This document shows, piece by piece, positions 38,788-45,703 of a stretch of 64,000 bases of DNA. Both the position numbers and the translations under genes were made by a program. Each line of letters starts with the position of its first letter. Position 1 is the stretch's first letter. The stretch is taken from assembly GCA_016213775.1 (NCBI GenBank), contig JACQZR010000304.1, positions 1 through 64,000 on the forward strand, written 5' to 3'. This DNA is from Acidobacteriota bacterium. Its GTDB lineage: Bacteria > Acidobacteriota > Terriglobia > Bryobacterales > Bryobacteraceae. The notes beneath the pieces are model-generated. The model worked only from the letters and a program-made list of their open reading frames with translations. It ran no database searches and was not told the origin of the DNA.

Positions 38788-39807
38788 ATGGCTTGCGTTG
38801 CCGCTGTCATCGCCGATGATTTGACCGGAGCCCTGGAAATGGGGGGGCTGCTGGCGGCGCGGCGTTTGCGGACACTGGTGACCGTGCGCCCGCACCCGGA
38901 CACATCGGAATGTGACGCGTTGGTGGTGGATACCGAGTCGCGCAACACGGAGCCAGAGGCCGCGGCTGAGCGGGTAAATGCCGCGGTCCGGGCAATCGCC
39001 AAGTTTGGTTCCTGTCCGACATTCAAGAAAGTCGATTCGACACTGCGCGGGCCGATTGGGGCCGAATTGCGCGCGCTCTCAGCGGCTTTGGGAGGGCGGC
39101 GCATTCTTCTCGCGCCAGCCTATCCGCAACTCGGGCGTGTGGTCCGGTCAGGCCGCCTGATCGTTGGCGGAGTGGAGGTGGATCGGACACAGTTCGCACA
39201 GGATCCGCGCTGGCCGGTGTCCGATGCCCGCGTGAATCACGCGATTGGGTTGACTGAACCCGACCCGCTGATTCACGTTTGCGATGCCGAATCGGATGAG
39301 GATCTGCGGGCGCTCGCCGCCACAGCCGCACCGGATGTTGTACTGGCAGGATCTGGCGGGTTGGGACGCGTCTGGGCCGATGGCTTGCCGCCCGGTGCCG
39401 CGGTGCTCGAATCGGTCTCGCCGCCGCAGCGTCCGTTGCTCGTCTGTGGGAGCCGCCATCCCGTTTCCAGAGCGCAGGCGATGCACGCCGCCGCTACCGG
39501 CCTTCCGGTGATCCTTCCTCCGGACGAGACAGCAAATTCGCAGGCAGTACTGACCCAGGTGACAGTATCCGCAGCCGGTTCTATCGAAGCAAGACAGCCC
39601 GACATGCTGATTCTCTTCGGCGGGGAAACCGCGGCGGCGGTCCTCTCCCACATCGGGATAATGGACCTTTGGCCGGTTTGTGAAGTGGCCGCCGGGATTG
39701 TCGCCTCGCGCGCTAAACACGCCGACCGCGAGATGATGGTGGTGACCAAGGCAGGCGGATTCGGTACGCCTTCTGTCGTGGAAGACATACTCAGGAAGTG
39801 GCAATGA
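38788..39807 (+). CDS. Four-carbon acid sugar kinase family protein
   Basis: 339-aa kinase of the DUF1537/OtnK family, which phosphorylates four-carbon acids such as threonate or erythronate. Motifs: DDLTGA near the start, FKKVDSTLRGPIGAE and, in the nucleotide-binding C-terminal domain, GGETAAAV and TKAGGFG. At 339 aa it is shorter than the usual 400-plus residues, with a reduced middle part. Its stop overlaps the ATG of the PdxA2-type gene, the known pathway partner. The acid used cannot be told from sequence. Confidence 0.88.
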   Translation: MACVAAVIADDLTGALEMGGLLAARRLRTLVTVRPHPDTSECDALVVDTESRNTEPEAAAERVNAAVRAIAKFGSCPTFKKVDSTLRGPIGAELRALSAALGGRRILLAPAYPQLGRVVRSGRLIVGGVEVDRTQFAQDPRWPVSDARVNHAIGLTEPDPLIHVCDAESDEDLRALAATAAPDVVLAGSGGLGRVWADGLPPGAAVLESVSPPQRPLLVCGSRHPVSRAQAMHAAATGLPVILPPDETANSQAVLTQVTVSAAGSIEARQPDMLILFGGETAAAVLSHIGIMDLWPVCEVAAGIVASRAKHADREMMVVTKAGGFGTPSVVEDILRKWQ

Positions 39808-40787
39808 TATTTGGCGTGACTTTTGGCGTAACCATGGGGGACTCAAGCGGTGTGGGTCCGGAGATTCTGTTGCAGTCGGCGGCACGTGGCGAGCTGCGTG
39901 TCCCCTTTGTTGTGTATGGCGATCTATCCGTGCTCGAAAGAGCCAATCGAGAGTTGGGCTACGGGGTGGCGCTGCGTCGTGCTGCCTCTCCGGTGGACGC
40001 GGCTGCCGGGGACTCGGTGAGCGTCGTCGATCACGGATTACTTGCGGAGAAGGATGTCACGCCAGGACAGTTGAACGCCGCCTCGGGACGCGCAGCGCGA
40101 GAGTACGTGATCTCTGCCGCCAGGGATGCGCTCGCCGGTCACATTGCCGCGATGGTGACTCTCCCCATGAACAAGGAAGCGACGCAAATGAGCGACCCGC
40201 ATTTCACCGGGCACACCGAGTTGATTGGCGAAGTCTGCGGCGCCGCCGATGTCACCATCATGCTCGCATCCGATCAACTGATCGTCACCCACGTCAGTAC
40301 GCATTGTTCACTGCGGGAAGCAATTGAGCGGACGAAGAAGCCGCGGATTTGCCGCATCATTGAGCTCACCTGCCGGGCCGTGGAACGGTTGAAGCCGGAC
40401 TATAAGGTGGCGGTGGCGGGCCTCAATCCGCACGCCGGCGAAAACGGACTTTTTGGACGTGAGGAGATCGACGAAATCCGCCCGGCCGTGGAATGGGCAC
40501 AGGAGCGCGGCTTCCGCGTGGATGGCCCCCATCCCCCCGACACGCTGTTCTACGCGGCGGTGCAGCGGCGCAAGTACGATGCCATTGTTTGTATGTATCA
40601 CGACCAGGGTCACATCCCATCCAAACTGCTGGACTTTGAGGGAGGCGTGAACATCGCCCTCGGGCTGCCCATTATCCGCACGTCTGTGGATCACGGCACG
40701 GCGTTCGACATTGCGTGGAGAGGCAAGGCGACGAACAAGAGCTTTCTCAAAGCCTTCGAATTCGCGCAGCGTCTGGTTGGCAGCTAA
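39804..40787 (+). CDS. pdxA2: PdxA2-type 4-phospho-acid dehydrogenase
   Basis: 327-aa metal-dependent dehydrogenase of the PdxA superfamily. Signatures VTMGDSSGVGPEI, the metal-binding His in HTELIGEVCG, MYHDQGHIPSK near the C-terminus, and PIIRTSVDHGTAFDIA. The pairing with an OtnK-type kinase by ATGA overlap marks it as the PdxA2 branch, which oxidises 4-phospho-D-threonate or -erythronate and decarboxylates the product to dihydroxyacetone phosphate, rather than the pyridoxine-biosynthetic PdxA. The start at 39804 is set by the overlap; an upstream GTG (39798) is less likely. Confidence 0.88.
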   Translation: MIFGVTFGVTMGDSSGVGPEILLQSAARGELRVPFVVYGDLSVLERANRELGYGVALRRAASPVDAAAGDSVSVVDHGLLAEKDVTPGQLNAASGRAAREYVISAARDALAGHIAAMVTLPMNKEATQMSDPHFTGHTELIGEVCGAADVTIMLASDQLIVTHVSTHCSLREAIERTKKPRICRIIELTCRAVERLKPDYKVAVAGLNPHAGENGLFGREEIDEIRPAVEWAQERGFRVDGPHPPDTLFYAAVQRRKYDAIVCMYHDQGHIPSKLLDFEGGVNIALGLPIIRTSVDHGTAFDIAWRGKATNKSFLKAFEFAQRLVGS

Positions 40788-40800
40788 GAACTGGGACGCG

Positions 40801-41463
40801 CTACAGCGATCCATACTTCGCGTAGGCGTCCTTCACGGAAACGCCTCGCCGTAATTCCTCGCGCATGCCGCCCTCGCGGCGCATCACATCCTCAGCGGCC
40901 TCCAACACCTCCACTGTCAGCATCTGCGGCACAATCACCACACCGTCAACGTCACCGAAGACAAAATCTCCGGGATGGATCACGGTCGCGCCAATACGGA
41001 TAGGAACCTGATACTCGCGAATCTCCCAGCGTCCGATGGAACTGGCCGAGCACTTAAACCGCGCAAATACCGGGTAGCCCATAACGTCGACGAAATCGAC
41101 ATCGCGCACACCGCCGTCGATCACCGCCCCCGTGCACCCGCGTTGCAGCGCGGCCGTGGACATCATCTCGCCCCAATGCGCACAATCGCTGGAGCCACCA
41201 CAAGCCCACACGGACACTGTTCCCGGCGTGATGGAATCGAGCATGGCCAACCGCGTCTCCGTGTCGTCGTTTGCGGAATCGGCGCAGGGATACCCCTGTC
41301 CGGTGAAAGCAACTCCGGCAACCCGGTTTGCCTTCGTGAAGGCCGTCACGCCATGGGGCAGAACCTGCTGGCGAAACCCGCGTTTGTCAATAATGTCGGA
41401 AACGGCACCCGTGTAGAGCCGCGAATAGCGCTCGCGAACCGCGGCGATCCCGGAAGGACTCAT
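40801..41463 (-). CDS. RraA-like aldolase/demethylmenaquinone methyltransferase-fold protein
   Basis: 220-aa RraA-family protein. The hallmark loop VIDGGVRDVD with the conserved Arg-Asp pair is present at about 118-127, and GDVDGVVIVP near the C-terminus binds metal and substrate in class II 4-hydroxy-4-methyl-2-oxoglutarate-type aldolases. It is convergent with the PdxA2-type gene (13 nt apart), so not in the same transcript, but a role in breakdown of sugar acids is plausible. RNase-E-inhibitor function is less likely given the context. Confidence 0.87.
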   Translation of the reverse strand: MSPSGIAAVRERYSRLYTGAVSDIIDKRGFRQQVLPHGVTAFTKANRVAGVAFTGQGYPCADSANDDTETRLAMLDSITPGTVSVWACGGSSDCAHWGEMMSTAALQRGCTGAVIDGGVRDVDFVDVMGYPVFARFKCSASSIGRWEIREYQVPIRIGATVIHPGDFVFGDVDGVVIVPQMLTVEVLEAAEDVMRREGGMREELRRGVSVKDAYAKYGSL

Positions 41464-41543
41464 TCGCTTTCATTGTAGACCTTCGGAGCCCCTGTCACTT
41501 TCCTTGCGAGATTCCATCTACACTGACAGAAGGAGATCTCCTC

Positions 41544-41633
41544 ATGCCCGAGTGGGCGCTCATGGTACTCGTTTTCGGGGGCTACTTCGCCCTCATGCGC
41601 TGGGTTCTGCCAAAGCTCGGCTACAACACTTGA
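41544..41633 (+). CDS. Small conserved-looking membrane protein (29 aa)
   Basis: 29-aa ORF with a strong ribosome-binding site (AAGGAGAT, about 8 nt before the ATG). The sequence is mainly one hydrophobic segment (ALMVLVFGGYFALMRWVLP) followed by KLGYNT. From memory it resembles tiny GGYF/LPKLG proteins occasionally annotated in Acidobacteria and Planctomycetes, which I cannot check here. Too short for most gene callers. Function unknown. Confidence 0.6.
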   Translation: MPEWALMVLVFGGYFALMRWVLPKLGYNT

Positions 41634-41685
41634 ATGTCATCCTGTGACGTCGGGTCCCGGCGTCCAGATGTGAAGTCGATGGGTG

Positions 41686-42639
41686 TCAGCCCTTCAACTC
41701 TTCCGCAATCTCCTGCGCGGCTTTTCGGGCTTCATCCACCTGATGAATCTCAAAGGAAATAGCCCCCACCTTGGGATGGCCGCCTCCCCCGTATCGTTCG
41801 CAGATTGTAGCGAGGTTGTGTTTCAGCGGCTGCGGCGCCCACGGATTCGAGCCCACCGAAACTTTAGTGCGGAACGTCGACACGCTCACCGAGACCGTAT
41901 ACACGGACTGCGGAAACAGGTAATAAGGGATGAACTTGTTGTAACCGTCCAACTGATCGTTCACCAGATCAAAAAAGACCACCCCGCCATCGCAGGCTGA
42001 CCTGTTTCCGATAATGTCGATGGAACGCAAGTGCCGGTCGTACAGAGGCAGGTACAGCGCCTGGATCTCCGGCTTCGCAATGATCGCCGACAGGCTCTCC
42101 CTGGTCATCCACCGGATGATCTTCTGCACAATGTCCGATCCCTTGGAGCCCTCAATCACCAGCGTCAGCTTCATGGCAGGCTCGCCAAGCTCCACCGCTT
42201 CCCTGGCGTCTTTGTACTGCGCACCATCAATAATGTCGGCCCATTCCACCAGCTCTTCCAGATCCGGCGCCACATACTGGAAACGGTCCCTGGTCACGGT
42301 GGCGATGAACTTTGTGCACGAACGATACGTTGGATCAAACAGCTTCTTCCCGCTGTTGTCAAGGCGGAAGTGATCGGCGTCCTCTGGTCTGAGGAACGCG
42401 CTCTGATGATGGTCAAACCACCAAGTGAGCCGCGGATCAGGCGAGTATTTGAAATCGACGATGGCATTCACATCGCCGTCAAATAGCGAATCCTCGAAAA
42501 TCTGCGACGCCTTGTGAGCCATGCCGGTATAGACGAACTCGGCTTTGGGCGCAACCGCATCACGGTAGAAACGGCTGAAAAACGCTGCTGAGGCCGCTCC
42601 GTCGAAGCAGTGATCGTGGTAAAGAACGCGTACCCGCAT
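41686..42639 (-). CDS. DHH-family phosphoesterase
   Basis: 317-aa protein of the DHH/DHHA1 superfamily (NrnA/RecJ-like, Mn-dependent phosphoesterases). The first motif is HDHCFDGAASAAFF near the N-terminus, DHH is seen in WWFDHHQSA, an Asp-rich segment is WADIIDGAQY, and the C-terminal DHHA1 signature is YGGGGHPKVGAISF. It stands alone. Likely substrates are short oligonucleotides or phosphorylated nucleotides, but this divergent member could differ. Confidence 0.85.
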   Translation of the reverse strand: MRVRVLYHDHCFDGAASAAFFSRFYRDAVAPKAEFVYTGMAHKASQIFEDSLFDGDVNAIVDFKYSPDPRLTWWFDHHQSAFLRPEDADHFRLDNSGKKLFDPTYRSCTKFIATVTRDRFQYVAPDLEELVEWADIIDGAQYKDAREAVELGEPAMKLTLVIEGSKGSDIVQKIIRWMTRESLSAIIAKPEIQALYLPLYDRHLRSIDIIGNRSACDGGVVFFDLVNDQLDGYNKFIPYYLFPQSVYTVSVSVSTFRTKVSVGSNPWAPQPLKHNLATICERYGGGGHPKVGAISFEIHQVDEARKAAQEIAEELKG

Positions 42640-42716: not shown

Positions 42717-43310
42717 CTAGAGCAAAATCAGCCCGTAGCGAAGGCCCGCCGTCACGGCTTCCGTACGCGTTCCTGCCCCCATTTTGCTCAAAATACTGGC
42801 CACGTGATACTTCACCGTGTGCTCGGAAATAGCCAGCCGCGCAGCGATTTCCTTGTTGCCGATGCCCAGCGCCAGCATACGCAAAATCTCCGTTTCGCGC
42901 GGCGTGAGAGGCTCCTGCAGCGGCGTTGCCGGCCGCGCGGGAGCATCCAACTGTGCGTCTGTGAGCGCGTCAGCCGTGTTTGGGTGCACCACCAGCAAAC
43001 CCGCCGCAACAGCTTCCACCGCGGCCTCCAGTTCCGTCTCGTCCGCATCGGCGGGCAGCACACCGCGTACGCCCCAGCGCAAAGCGAGAGGCGTGAACGC
43101 CGGCGGCGGGCTGTCCATCAGAACAAGTAGCGGCAGAGCCAGCATTTCCGCTCGTATCGACTCCGGCACGCGATCGAGCAGCATTACCACGAGGTCCGGC
43201 TTCTCCTCGTCGTCCATGTGCGAATAAGGTGTCACCGCAAAGCGTGGCGTTAGCATCAGCTCCAGGCGCGAGCGCTCCTCTTCCGGTGCTTCCAGCCCGA
43301 TATGGATCAA
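42717..43310 (-). CDS. LuxR-type regulator with degenerate receiver domain
   Basis: 197 aa. The C-terminal LuxR/GerE helix-turn-helix is intact (LTPRETEILRMLALGIGNKEIA, ISEHTVKYHVASILSKM). The N-terminal about 115 residues resemble a receiver in layout (MIHIGLEA..., LVVMLLDRVP, LPLLVLMDS, GVRGVLPADADETEL), but the acidic pocket is lost and the phospho-acceptor Asp is doubtful. It is last in a three-gene operon behind two HtrA-like proteins, its ATG overlapping the protease stop (ATGA). Its control is therefore likely to be non-phosphorylative, perhaps by interaction with or cleavage by those proteins. Confidence 0.88.
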   Translation of the reverse strand: MIHIGLEAPEEERSRLELMLTPRFAVTPYSHMDDEEKPDLVVMLLDRVPESIRAEMLALPLLVLMDSPPPAFTPLALRWGVRGVLPADADETELEAAVEAVAAGLLVVHPNTADALTDAQLDAPARPATPLQEPLTPRETEILRMLALGIGNKEIAARLAISEHTVKYHVASILSKMGAGTRTEAVTAGLRYGLILL

Positions 43311-43888
43311 GCTGCCTTCCTGACTCCCGCCCGCAGGAAGTCGCGCACGACATTGCTCGGAATAGCGAGCGCGAGTCCGCGCGCGACCATCGTGTTGATG
43401 CCGATGACGCGGCCGAGCGCGTCAGCGAGCGGCCCGCCGGAATTGCCCGGCGCCAGCCTCACATCGGCTTGCACCCAGTTATTGGGACCCGCACCGCGCA
43501 GCGGACCTACCGTATGCACTACGCCGGTGCTCACCGCTCCAGTGAAGCCGAGCGGGTTGCCCGCCGCGATCACCATCTCCCCCGGGCGCAGTCTTGACGA
43601 ATCGCCCAACTCAGCCGCCGGCAGCCCGAGTGTGTCGATCTTCAGCAGGGCCAGATCATGACGCCGGGCAAACGCCACGACCCTTGCTGGGAACCTCCGC
43701 CCATCGTGCAACTCCACCATCGGCTGATTGTTCTGGATCACGTGCGCATTCGTTACAATCCACCCCGTGCTTTCCGTGATGACGCCGGAGCCTGAGCCGC
43801 CTCGCGCATTCACCGCAGGCGCAAACAGGATCCGCACGGTGCAGTGACGAAGCTGTTCGATACGGTCGCTATGGGTGTTCAGCGGCAT
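43307..43888 (-). CDS. HtrA-like serine protease without PDZ domain
   Basis: 193-aa trypsin-fold protein of the S1C (HtrA/Deg) type with a complete catalytic triad: His49 in VTNAHVI, Asp78 in RRHDLALLKI and Ser150 in LAPGNSGGPL. It has no signal peptide, membrane anchor or PDZ domain, so it should be cytoplasmic. The upstream gene is a PDZ-bearing homologue whose active-site Ser is Asn; the two overlap by 10 bp. A complementary pair (one catalytic, one binding) is a reasonable reading. Confidence 0.88.
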   Translation of the reverse strand: MPLNTHSDRIEQLRHCTVRILFAPAVNARGGSGSGVITESTGWIVTNAHVIQNNQPMVELHDGRRFPARVVAFARRHDLALLKIDTLGLPAAELGDSSRLRPGEMVIAAGNPLGFTGAVSTGVVHTVGPLRGAGPNNWVQADVRLAPGNSGGPLADALGRVIGINTMVARGLALAIPSNVVRDFLRAGVRKAA

Positions 43889-44793
43889 TGCTCCGCCGCC
43901 TCCTGCCGTTCGCCTATAACCAGCGGAACTTCCAGCAGCGCGCCTCCGCGGATGACGTGAGCGGTTACTTGTTTGCCGATGGAATCGGCGCCGAGCACAC
44001 TCTGCACATCACGCGGGTCGCCAATCTTCACCTCGTCGATGGCTACGAGAATATCGCCCACCATCAGCCCTGCCTTCTCAGCCGCACTGCCCGCTTCCAC
44101 CGTCAACAGGATCAGAGCGGTGTCAGTAGCCAATTGGTCGCGTAGGCTGCGCGGAATCGCCACCGGTTGCATGCCGACGCCGAGATAGCCGCGCGGAACG
44201 TAGCCGTTGCTCAGCAATGTCTCCACCACGCGGTCCACCGTTGCGTTTGGAATCGCCATACCGCCGAGCCGGGAGAACTCCGCCGTCGCGATGCCGATGA
44301 TGTTGCCGCTGACATCGATCACCGCGCCGCCGTTACTTGCGGGGTAGATCGCGGTGTCGAGTTGAATCAACCTGTCGAGCGAGCCGCCTTGCCACGTGCG
44401 CCACGCGCCGCTCACCGCGCTGATCAGCCCCATCGACGCAGTGACGCCACTGCGTATCGACCGGCCCACGACGAGCGAAAGTTCGCCGGCGCGTACGGGA
44501 CCGGCGGCGCGAGTGGCAACTGGCGTGGTCCCCGCCTCTACGCGCAGCACCGCGAGATCCGTTCCAGGGTCGCGGCCGGCCACTGATACCGTCTGCCGTG
44601 TTCCATCAGGAAACGCGATTTCTGCTGACGTCTGGTGCTTCAGCGTGTGGCTTGTCGTGACAATGATTCCTTCGCGCCACTGGACGCCGCTGGCAGGCAG
44701 GCGCGGATGCGCGATCACCGACACGACATAGCGCCCCGCGGCTTCCACCGCCGCGGCCAGTTGATCGGAAACTTCGAGAAGAGGATTGGGCAT
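43879..44793 (-). CDS. PDZ-containing HtrA-like pseudoprotease
   Basis: 304 aa with a trypsin-like domain (1-195) and one PDZ domain (about 200-295; GYLGVGMQPVAIP, AEKAGLMVGDILVAID). His49 (TTSHTLKH) and Asp79 (GTDLAVLRV) of the triad are present, but the nucleophile motif reads PASNGGAV in place of PGNSGGPL, so Asn154 replaces Ser; the codon (44332-44334) is AAC. Peptide hydrolysis by the standard mechanism is not expected. No signal peptide. First gene of the operon with the active protease and the LuxR regulator. Confidence 0.88.
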   Translation of the reverse strand: MPNPLLEVSDQLAAAVEAAGRYVVSVIAHPRLPASGVQWREGIIVTTSHTLKHQTSAEIAFPDGTRQTVSVAGRDPGTDLAVLRVEAGTTPVATRAAGPVRAGELSLVVGRSIRSGVTASMGLISAVSGAWRTWQGGSLDRLIQLDTAIYPASNGGAVIDVSGNIIGIATAEFSRLGGMAIPNATVDRVVETLLSNGYVPRGYLGVGMQPVAIPRSLRDQLATDTALILLTVEAGSAAEKAGLMVGDILVAIDEVKIGDPRDVQSVLGADSIGKQVTAHVIRGGALLEVPLVIGERQEAAEQCR

Positions 44794-44887
44794 TTCGGAT
44801 ACTTCCTATATATTCAGGATGCCGGCGGGAGGCCCTTCGACGCATCGGTAAATCGGCTAGGGGTATGATGCCTGTATCGGCAACGCG

Positions 44888-45703
44888 ATGAACCGTCGAC
44901 TTTTCCTTACCGCATTCACCACGTGCGTCACGCGCGCAGCGGCTCCGCTGCAGGAGATGCCGAGAGGCTTTCTGCGCAAACCGGAAGGCGCCGGCAAGTT
45001 CCCTGCCGTGATCCTGATTCACGGTGGTTTGCGTGAGATGCCGGTCGAGCAGTTGCGCAAGTCCGCCATGGGCGTGATGCCAGGCAGATTCGCCGAGGCA
45101 GGCTACGTTGTCGCCATAGTCACCTACCGCAGCCGCGATCACGACCCTCAATCCCCGGATTCCCTGGAAGACTGCATGGCGGCGCTCCAGTTCATGCGCA
45201 TGCTGCCCTATGTCGATTCGCGCAGCATCGTCGCCTATGGATGCAGCGGCGGTGGCGACCTGACGCTGGAAATGGCATGCGCCGGCGACTTGGCCGCCAT
45301 CATTGCCGAAGAGCCCGCCAGCATGATGTTTACCGGCACCTTCAACAGCGCTTCCGCAAAGGAAGGCGAGCGGTACACCCCGGCCGATTCCGCCCCCATC
45401 ACCGCCAATCCGAAAAAGTATTACACGCGCGCCATGCAGAAGAACGTAGACCGCAAGCTGAGTCAGATGCGGTGCCCCGTCATGATCGTGCAGGGAGATC
45501 AAAGCCCGGTCAATCGCTACAACGCCGACGTGCTGATCCCCGCTCTGCAATCCTGGCGCAAGGTGCTTGAAGTCAAGACCTATCCTGGCCGGCCTCACTG
45601 CTTCGGCTTCCAGGGCCGCGCCGGATCGGAACAGCTATTCCGCGATGTGGATACGTTCTGCCGCAAGCATCTGCCTGTGAAGCCGCGTGTGGTAGCTCGC
45701 TGA
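44888..45703 (+). CDS. Secreted alpha/beta hydrolase (dienelactone hydrolase-like)
   Basis: 271 aa. Short signal-like N-terminus (NRRLFLTAFTTCVTRAAA), oxyanion region ILIHGGLRE, nucleophile elbow GCSGGG, acid Asp in IVQGDQSPVN and His in GRPHCFGF. The fold matches prolyl-oligopeptidase or dienelactone-hydrolase-type enzymes. Divergent from the HtrA operon (94 nt). It ends 73 bp before the left att repeat of the integrative element. Confidence 0.85.
   Translation: MNRRLFLTAFTTCVTRAAAPLQEMPRGFLRKPEGAGKFPAVILIHGGLREMPVEQLRKSAMGVMPGRFAEAGYVVAIVTYRSRDHDPQSPDSLEDCMAALQFMRMLPYVDSRSIVAYGCSGGGDLTLEMACAGDLAAIIAEEPASMMFTGTFNSASAKEGERYTPADSAPITANPKKYYTRAMQKNVDRKLSQMRCPVMIVQGDQSPVNRYNADVLIPALQSWRKVLEVKTYPGRPHCFGFQGRAGSEQLFRDVDTFCRKHLPVKPRVVAR

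Follow-up and report, generated by a model that had tools for sequence, protein, structure and literature searches.

HtrA proteases are usually regarded as exported enzymes of quality control or envelope stress, and DegS and AlgW form homotrimers. Here we describe a trio of overlapping genes from an Acidobacteriota bacterium of the family Bryobacteraceae, in which an HtrA pair is encoded together with its own LuxR-type transcription factor; the trio recurs in several phyla, and the catalytic serine has been discarded many times in one HtrA partner and never cleanly in the other. The trio lies in a stretch of 64,000 nucleotides, hereafter the window (positions 1 to 64,000 of JACQZR010000304.1, our contig C226, in a genome of 10.96 megabases). 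Coordinates are those of the window, and all three genes are on its minus strand, gene 1 overlapping gene 2 by 10 base pairs (bp) and gene 2 overlapping gene 3 by 4 bp. The features of the locus are the following.

44843..44861, minus strand: operator-like site CCTAGCCGATTTACCGATG, 49 bp before the start of gene 1; matrix score 24.8.
43879..44793, minus strand: gene 1, predicted HtrA-like pseudoprotease with a PDZ domain; 304 amino acids, no signal peptide apparent, AlphaFold pLDDT 94.
44383..44403, minus strand: gene 1 WRTWQGG, the segment aligned with HtrA loop L3 by alignment to solved HtrAs.
44332..44334, minus strand: gene 1 codon 154, Asn (AAC) in place of the catalytic Ser, in the motif YPASNGG.
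43927..44187, minus strand: gene 1 PDZ domain (Pfam PDZ_2), with YLGV at residues 203-206.
43307..43888, minus strand: gene 2, HtrA-type serine protease domain without PDZ; 193 amino acids.
43439..43441, minus strand: gene 2 catalytic Ser150 (TCC), within GNSGG.
42717..43310, minus strand: gene 3, NarL/LuxR-type regulator with a degenerate receiver; 197 amino acids, its TTG start overlapping the gene 2 stop.
42750..42911, minus strand: gene 3 GerE helix-turn-helix.
42720..42734, minus strand: gene 3 C-terminal tail GLILL-COOH (Phi-x-Phi-COOH, Phi being hydrophobic), candidate PDZ ligand from a comparison of tails across LuxR proteins.

In profile searches gene 1 matches Trypsin_2 (E 4e-21) and PDZ_2 (E 9e-11), a trypsin-like barrel and then a PDZ domain, which is the architecture of the HtrA/DegP class (S1C), and the closest folds to its single-chain AlphaFold model are AlgW, DegQ, DegS and DegP. 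His49 and Asp79 are kept and residue 154 is Asn; judged by its sequence, gene 1 is an HtrA-derived pseudoprotease rather than a protease. Gene 2 matches Trypsin_2 (E 4e-32) with no PDZ match, and has His49, Asp78 and Ser150, the last within GNSGG. Gene 3 has the NarL/LuxR architecture of a receiver followed by a GerE helix-turn-helix (E 1e-19); it matches response regulator 5hev over its full length (E 5e-39), and its receiver fold is backed by the AlphaFold model (pLDDT 92) and Foldseek. Ala and Pro occupy the positions of the acidic pair, and the phosphoacceptor Asp is also gone. An initial annotation of the window had described a gene 1 with His, Asp and PDZ and with Asn for Ser, a gene 2 with a full triad and no PDZ, a LuxR protein whose receiver lacks its acidic pocket, and overlaps of 10 and 4 bp, all of which were borne out.

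The same annotation proposed looking for the trio in other genomes, where it proved to be conserved in several phyla. Within the family of the window, gene 1 matches at or above 254 bits occur in 81 of 237 genomes, after which the next scores fall to 208, so that the orthologues form a group well set apart. Among sampled genomes, gene 1 is present in 10/396 from the phylum of the window (its own genome included) and in 9/386 from that of the Nostoc genome G277 (G277 included). A scan of named genomes gave 219 places, of which the best 80 belong to Acidobacteriota, Nostoc and other cyanobacteria, Chloroflexi, Eremiobacterota and one 'Proteobacteria' bin, and at most of these 80 genes 2 and 3 lie behind gene 1. 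Beyond the family, then, the trio is found in other Acidobacteriota, Cyanobacteriota, Chloroflexota and Eremiobacterota, including named Nostoc strains. Among the 115 gene-1 loci with at least 2.3 kilobases of downstream sequence, 109 have gene 3 behind gene 1 on the same strand, 95 have gene 2 and 94 have the two together. Such recurrence across phyla excludes chance, and since the spread is patchy and the gene order constant, it suggests that the trio has been transferred as a unit.

For comparison across loci, gene-1 proteins were those scoring above 230 bits in the fetched loci, 202 candidates that came to 148 after removal of duplicates. The full His-Asp-Ser triad (HDS) of the S1C class is kept in 61/148 and GNSGG in 1/148. 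Of the 148, 72 still have Ser at the serine position, in GFSGG- or GSSGG-like motifs, and 76 have one of A, V, I, D, N, E, T and G instead; substitution extends to His, which is Glu in Nostocales. In the clade of the window the position is Asn in four of five rows and Glu in the fifth, and Asn occurs in a single row elsewhere. The initial annotation's expectation that an Asn/Ser pattern would be kept among relatives therefore failed, Asn not being conserved and Ser persisting in 72/148. It had also named gene-1 orthologues with a normal GNSGG site as evidence against its proposal; the only one in the set is L195_136, which is probably the live partner. Whatever the state of the active site, the PDZ domain is reached by the gene-1 profile in 148/148 (147 directly, L111 through a second match), and Y203, L204 and G205 are invariant across 72 aligned rows. 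A motif W-[RQH]-x-W-[RQ], represented in the window by WRTWQGG, occurs in 49/148 gene-1 proteins and in 0/121 gene-2 proteins; its place before Ser is our reason for giving the segment the tentative name L3, after the loop that takes part in L3-to-LD activation between the subunits of HtrA trimers.

The relatives of gene 2 are quite otherwise conserved, with HDS in 118/121 and GNSGG in 115/121. Three lack HDS: L085, which is cut by a contig end, and L093 and L103, which are broken genes (two reading frames in L093, a stop in L103; the pieces were scored apart and not mended). A PDZ domain is present in 107/121, cut in 2/121 and absent in 12/121, the last including the broken L103 and the odd L155, so the PDZ-less live protease that the initial annotation described is a local feature and finds no support as a rule for the system. 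The division of labour itself is supported, with PDZ in 148/148 gene-1 proteins and a triad never cleanly lost among 121 gene-2 proteins. In both L093 and L103, gene 2 is broken while gene 1 is already Ser-less; they may possibly represent early stages of a loss of gene 2 that is completed in L117, a close relative of L093.

The C-terminus of gene 2 often reads -AA (49 of 71 complete proteins; -EAT in Nostoc), as at 43307-43320 in the window. We considered this end as a degron or as a PDZ ligand and rejected both, as it coincides with the Shine-Dalgarno sequence and spacer of gene 3. The stop of gene 2 and the start of gene 3 overlap as NTGA at 100/114 junctions, and because the end of gene 2 thus carries the Shine-Dalgarno sequence of gene 3, the -AA end is probably dictated by the overlap.

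The asymmetry between the partners was placed on a gene-1 tree of the quick kind with 145 rows (L195_136, L024 and L132 were left out here and nowhere else). On it, Ser and non-Ser states interchange at least 16 times, the triad state 18 times, the presence of gene 2 14 times and the presence of PDZ in gene 2 8 times. The clade of the window comprises 5 rows with a starred support of 96, and all of these have a Ser-less gene 1 and a PDZ-less gene 2. The complementarity that the initial annotation saw, a dead protein with PDZ beside a live one without, accordingly stands for this clade, where it amounts to one coincidence, and falls as a rule, since a tree-wide trade-off between loss of Ser in gene 1 and loss of PDZ or absence of gene 2 was tried and showed no association.

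A simple explanation of these losses is that gene 1 is a redundant duplicate decaying neutrally on its way to a pseudogene, and the many different residues that replace Ser would fit such a course. Across 80 Nostocales pairs, however, the ratio of nonsynonymous to synonymous substitution rates (dN/dS) has a median of 0.13 in both gene 1 and gene 3 and of 0.19 in gene 2, the sample being 21 loci with a full trio whose gene 1 is Ser-less and has Glu for His (Nostocales by name where named). By this measure the dead gene 1 is under purifying selection in Nostocales. In the clade of the window, third codon positions differ most (0.32, 0.21 and 0.60 for gene 1 against that of L059). The PDZ domain covered in every gene-1 protein, conservation across phyla and the want of any clean triad loss in the partner likewise run counter to neutral decay, which in its simple form is already contradicted and which we find barely credible.

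The receiver of gene 3 is degenerate in most relatives. In 135 rows, Ala takes the first acidic position in 106/121 ungapped cases and Asp stands at the second in 11; Pro replaces Lys in 104/130 ungapped cases, and the phosphoacceptor Asp is retained in 60/126 ungapped ones. With the acidic pair and Lys mostly lost, ordinary phosphorylation of gene 3 is unlikely.

What is nearly constant in gene 3 is its end. LuxR proteins beside gene 1 terminate in G-L-[IV]-x-[LIV]-COOH or a near variant, and positions 0 and -2 are both hydrophobic in 129/131 of them (111 with gene 2 between and 20 without), compared with 4/47 control LuxR proteins (Fisher p about 4e-34, uncorrected for shared descent). The controls derive from 54 fetched loci in seven genomes, the window's own, for which all 24/24 matches were used, and six further ones, for which 30 loci were given; six trio members were set aside and one locus had no match. 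Position -1 varies freely (L, M, P, A, K, V, Y, H, E, I, Q, S), which is the pattern expected of a PDZ ligand. Where no gene 2 intervenes the tail persists, and 20/20 end in L, I or V. The specificity of PDZ domains for ligands is set mainly by positions 0 and -2, and in AlgW the residues W281, L282 and V284 contribute to binding of the peptide end, according to the part of the account cited (PMC8545111). From the motif and the numbering, Y203-L204-G205-V206 of gene 1 would occupy the same positions as these AlgW residues. Given hydrophobic residues at 0 and -2 in 129/131 tails, the LuxR tail is a candidate for the type of ligand that DegS and AlgW PDZ domains read, and with this Phi-x-Phi end LuxR becomes a natural candidate for the PDZ ligand of the trio, whether held, cleaved or acting as an activating peptide.

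Genes 1 and 2 are likely to be cytosolic, because the proteins appear to begin close to the domain itself; the gene 1 model has no N-terminal extension ahead of its first helix at residue 4. A hydropathy cut-off (17-residue mean of 1.9 within the first 55 residues) was reached by 0/148 gene-1 and 0/121 gene-2 proteins, a weak test, as only 2/8 ordinary HtrA frames from related genomes, taken as the yardstick, reached it. The cut-off does not separate the trio proteins from most ordinary HtrA frames, and we rejected it as proof of a cytosolic place. Of the initial annotation's statement that none of the proteins is exported, it can be upheld that no signal peptide is apparent; the test behind the remainder is weak.

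Upstream of gene 1, alignment brings out a conserved site that reads CCTAGCC-GATTTA-CCGATG in the window, with closely similar forms in other clades, and starts mostly 54 to 97 bp before gene 1 (10-90% range); the next best score within the window is 12.6. With a 25-bp matrix, trained on the same sites that it scored, the site exceeds the 99% level of shuffled sequence in 136/145 regions upstream of gene 1, the nulls being single-base shuffles. A matrix trained on 103 Acidobacteriota loci alone finds the site in 38/42 loci of other phyla, a held-out test whose seed consensus was composed after the Nostocales alignment had been inspected. A seed score of at least 12 of 16 is reached in 82/145 upstream regions and in 0/148 coding stretches. 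The site is a candidate operator, through which the LuxR protein likely controls its own operon.

A wider regulon was sought and rejected, since matches elsewhere are near the level of the reversed control or lie inside a coding frame. With one mismatch allowed, the pattern has 6 sites in the window's own genome, half of them a single repeated element, and the reversed pattern has 3; in the family genomes there are 18 exact sites, 8 of them at the trio promoter and the other 10 to be set against 9 for the reversed pattern. Eight Nostocales genomes hold 17 sites with at most one mismatch, against 3 for the reversed pattern, comprising 7 at the trio promoter, 4 exact sites inside one permease-like reading frame and 6 others. 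Across these three sets no recurrent target other than the trio promoter was seen. One single-mismatch site in the window's own genome (L271:1501-1519, contig C180) lies just before the start of a gene that by eye resembles a carboxyl-terminal processing protease, and is within the number expected from the reversed control. Nor was a specific recurrent gene family found beside the trio at the 76 loci with long flanks.

A regulator confined to its own promoter and a trio with no specific conserved neighbours would suit a plain quality-control operon, in which the HtrA pair handles damaged proteins and the LuxR protein senses something else, switches the operon on and makes no use of its tail. 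The usual function of the HtrA family and the overlapping genes favour the same explanation. It leaves unexplained, however, both the near-invariant Phi-x-Phi end of LuxR and the retention of a dead gene 1 with LuxR after gene 2 has been lost, and we consider it rather unlikely.

The reading that we prefer, held tentatively and with somewhat less than even confidence, is that the tail gives an HtrA pair, probably cytosolic, its hold on its own LuxR activator, which the pair binds or cleaves. Gene 2 would be the working HtrA-type protease; gene 1, non-cutting in many lineages with its fold and PDZ domain kept, would serve for sensing and binding, probably as a subunit of a mixed trimer formed with gene 2, to which it would lend its PDZ domain and sensing loop. 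Gene 3 would act as a LuxR-type activator rather than a repressor, not phosphorylatable in the usual way, driving its own operon from the conserved site upstream of gene 1, and its Phi-x-Phi-COOH tail would be the PDZ ligand by which the HtrA pair captures it and then holds or cleaves it. The signal may be other exposed C-termini, such as those of damaged proteins: once these occupy the PDZ domains, LuxR would be spared and more of the HtrA pair would be made, a titration feedback. The initial annotation had proposed that gene 1 binds a signal or substrate through its PDZ domain, forms a mixed oligomer with gene 2 and in this way brings gene 3 under control by proteolysis or binding; its hypothesis is partly supported, and the LuxR tail, which it had not noticed, supplies a possible concrete connection. 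A broader proposal is that the trio forms a phosphorylation-free cytosolic stress circuit across phyla, whose heteromer of pseudoprotease and protease senses unfolded C-termini in competition with the LuxR tail, capture or cleavage of LuxR setting how far the operon is transcribed, and that in the clade of the window PDZ sensor and triad blade have been split fully between two subunits; this we regard as possible and doubtful.

Several observations weigh against the proposed capture of LuxR by the HtrA pair. The inactivity of gene 1, as read from its triad, is not universal, because HDS is kept in 61/148. Tree-wide, loss of Ser in gene 1 is associated with neither absence of gene 2 nor loss of its PDZ domain (L103 and L155 were dropped from the PDZ comparison). 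The hydropathy test behind a cytosolic place is a weak one. The 129/131 tails are not independent events, because the LuxR sequences share descent; position 0 is aliphatic in these tails, as opposed to the aromatic ends of AlgW and DegS ligands, and the tail could pack against the helix-turn-helix instead. The motif upstream of gene 1 might be shared for another reason, as part of the promoter and not as a place where LuxR binds. Finally, gene 2 is missing beside gene 1 in 27/148 rows, of which two stop within 500 bp of gene 1, six have a live HtrA in another order and a seventh special case, L195_136, is the live HtrA itself. Sixteen genomes without gene 2 at the locus were searched, and a plausible gene 2 was found elsewhere in only three (G135, G129 and G133, at 291, 264 and 212 bits), the rest giving at most 198 bits, at the level of ordinary HtrA, or nothing. 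Because a dead gene 1 with LuxR persists without gene 2 in L057, L116 and L117, gene 2 is not indispensable.

The six loci with another order belong to a set of nine distant acidobacterial loci with other ARRANGEMENTS (L192-L196, L201-L204), which have no usual gene 2 behind gene 1. In these six (L193-L196, L203, L204), a second HtrA with HDS and GNSGG adjoins gene 1 and LuxR, and the triad of gene 1 is incomplete in 3/6; we regard them as a deeper version of the system. On present sequences a live partner for gene 1 is the usual condition, yet a dead gene 1 with LuxR alone also exists. A solitary gene 1 is seen in L134 (Anabaena azotica), with His to Glu, Ser to Ala and the upstream motif present; neither gene 2 nor gene 3 was found in nearly 8 kilobases downstream.

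That genes 1 and 3 form the most constant pair (109/115), and that loss of catalysis in gene 1, and even of gene 2 beside it, is tolerated, would be natural if gene 1 were an anti-activator whose PDZ domain sequesters LuxR without proteolysis and which gene 2, where present, cleaves to set LuxR free, comparable to DegS and its anti-sigma factor. The own PDZ domain that gene 2 usually has (107/121) speaks against this, and we think the arrangement distinctly unlikely.

The families to which the parts of the trio belong are known, and no description of the combination was found in the openly licensed papers searched, an absence that is weak evidence. Closest in composition are MamE/MamO and MamE1/MamE2 of magnetotactic bacteria, in which, as in the trio, an active and an inactive HtrA are paired, with repeated loss of the triad after duplication, as reported in the passages cited (PMC4794232). 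There, MamE proteolysis needs MamO, whose own triad is dispensable but whose TauE domain is required, and the two proteins were not detected in physical contact (PMC4794232); this precedent accordingly does not demonstrate a mixed trimer, which also tells against our preferred model. MamE/MamO differ in being a magnetosome system, in the transporter-like TauE domain and metal-binding role of MamO, and in that those passages name no LuxR partner, whereas the HtrA pair of the trio is accompanied by a transcription factor and occurs in several phyla. The keeping together of a live and a dead HtrA, as predicted from their residues, is a likeness in how the two systems would work.

With DegS-RseA and AlgW-MucA the trio would share the use of an HtrA PDZ domain that reads a C-terminus at positions 0 and -2 and controls transcription, as the cited section describes for those systems (PMC8545111). 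They differ in being periplasmic, with the tail of an outer membrane protein or of MucE as ligand and an anti-sigma factor as target, whereas the trio is probably cytosolic, has two different HtrA proteins and bears the candidate tail on the regulator itself. Gene 3 resembles NarL and VraR-LiaR response regulators in full-length homology and fold, and departs from them in the acidic pair and Lys, mostly lost. The nearest earlier notice found is in a survey of cyanobacterial Deg proteases, which records inactive Degs in Nostoc punctiforme ATCC 29133 and Anabaena variabilis ATCC 29413 and suggests neo-functionalization (PMC4877387); these are probably the gene 1 of Nostocales, with His to Glu and Ser to Ala, and the section concerned names no operon, live partner, LuxR or spread beyond cyanobacteria. 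The trio may be viewed as a form of HtrA-based regulation that has probably shifted to the cytosol, is divided between two subunits and is coupled to a LuxR regulator. It amounts to a natural experiment on possible activation between HtrA subunits, and to a simple, testable circuit in bacteria whose regulator may have its tail read by a PDZ domain.

A module for phage defence or biological conflict with a trypsin-like effector was also considered. PADLOC gives trypsin-domain matches to RT-Protease_XI (gene 2 E 6e-13, gene 1 E 6e-5), a match of gene 2 to LmuA (E 3e-5) and one of the helix-turn-helix to CARF3-CARF (E 3e-8), and inactive trypsin domains do occur in conflict systems, as noted in the part of a survey cited here (PMC7159879). 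These matches cover only the trypsin domain or the helix-turn-helix, which are pieces of larger models, and no nuclease or conflict gene was recognised among the 25 largest recurrent neighbour clusters; we rejected an identity with a known defence system, the PADLOC matches being to generic domains only, and hold the explanation to be very improbable.

Candidate conserved neighbours were likewise set aside, as the clusters found in more than five loci are frames antisense to the trio or members of large families at varied distances. The larger clusters among the 76 loci are PAS/kinase-like (14), ABC transporter-like (9) and two others (7 each), and clusters of 3 to 5 loci track lineages. The PAS-domain proteins, probably sensor kinases, lie in the flanks of 14/76 loci at scattered distances, a count without a chance control, and directly upstream of gene 1 only in L122. 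None of the window's own flanking genes falls in a recurrent cluster among the 25 largest; they encode, at 39798-42639 and 44888-45703, a PdxA-like protein, an RraA-like protein and one whose match to DHHA1 is weak, together with a divergent alpha/beta hydrolase.

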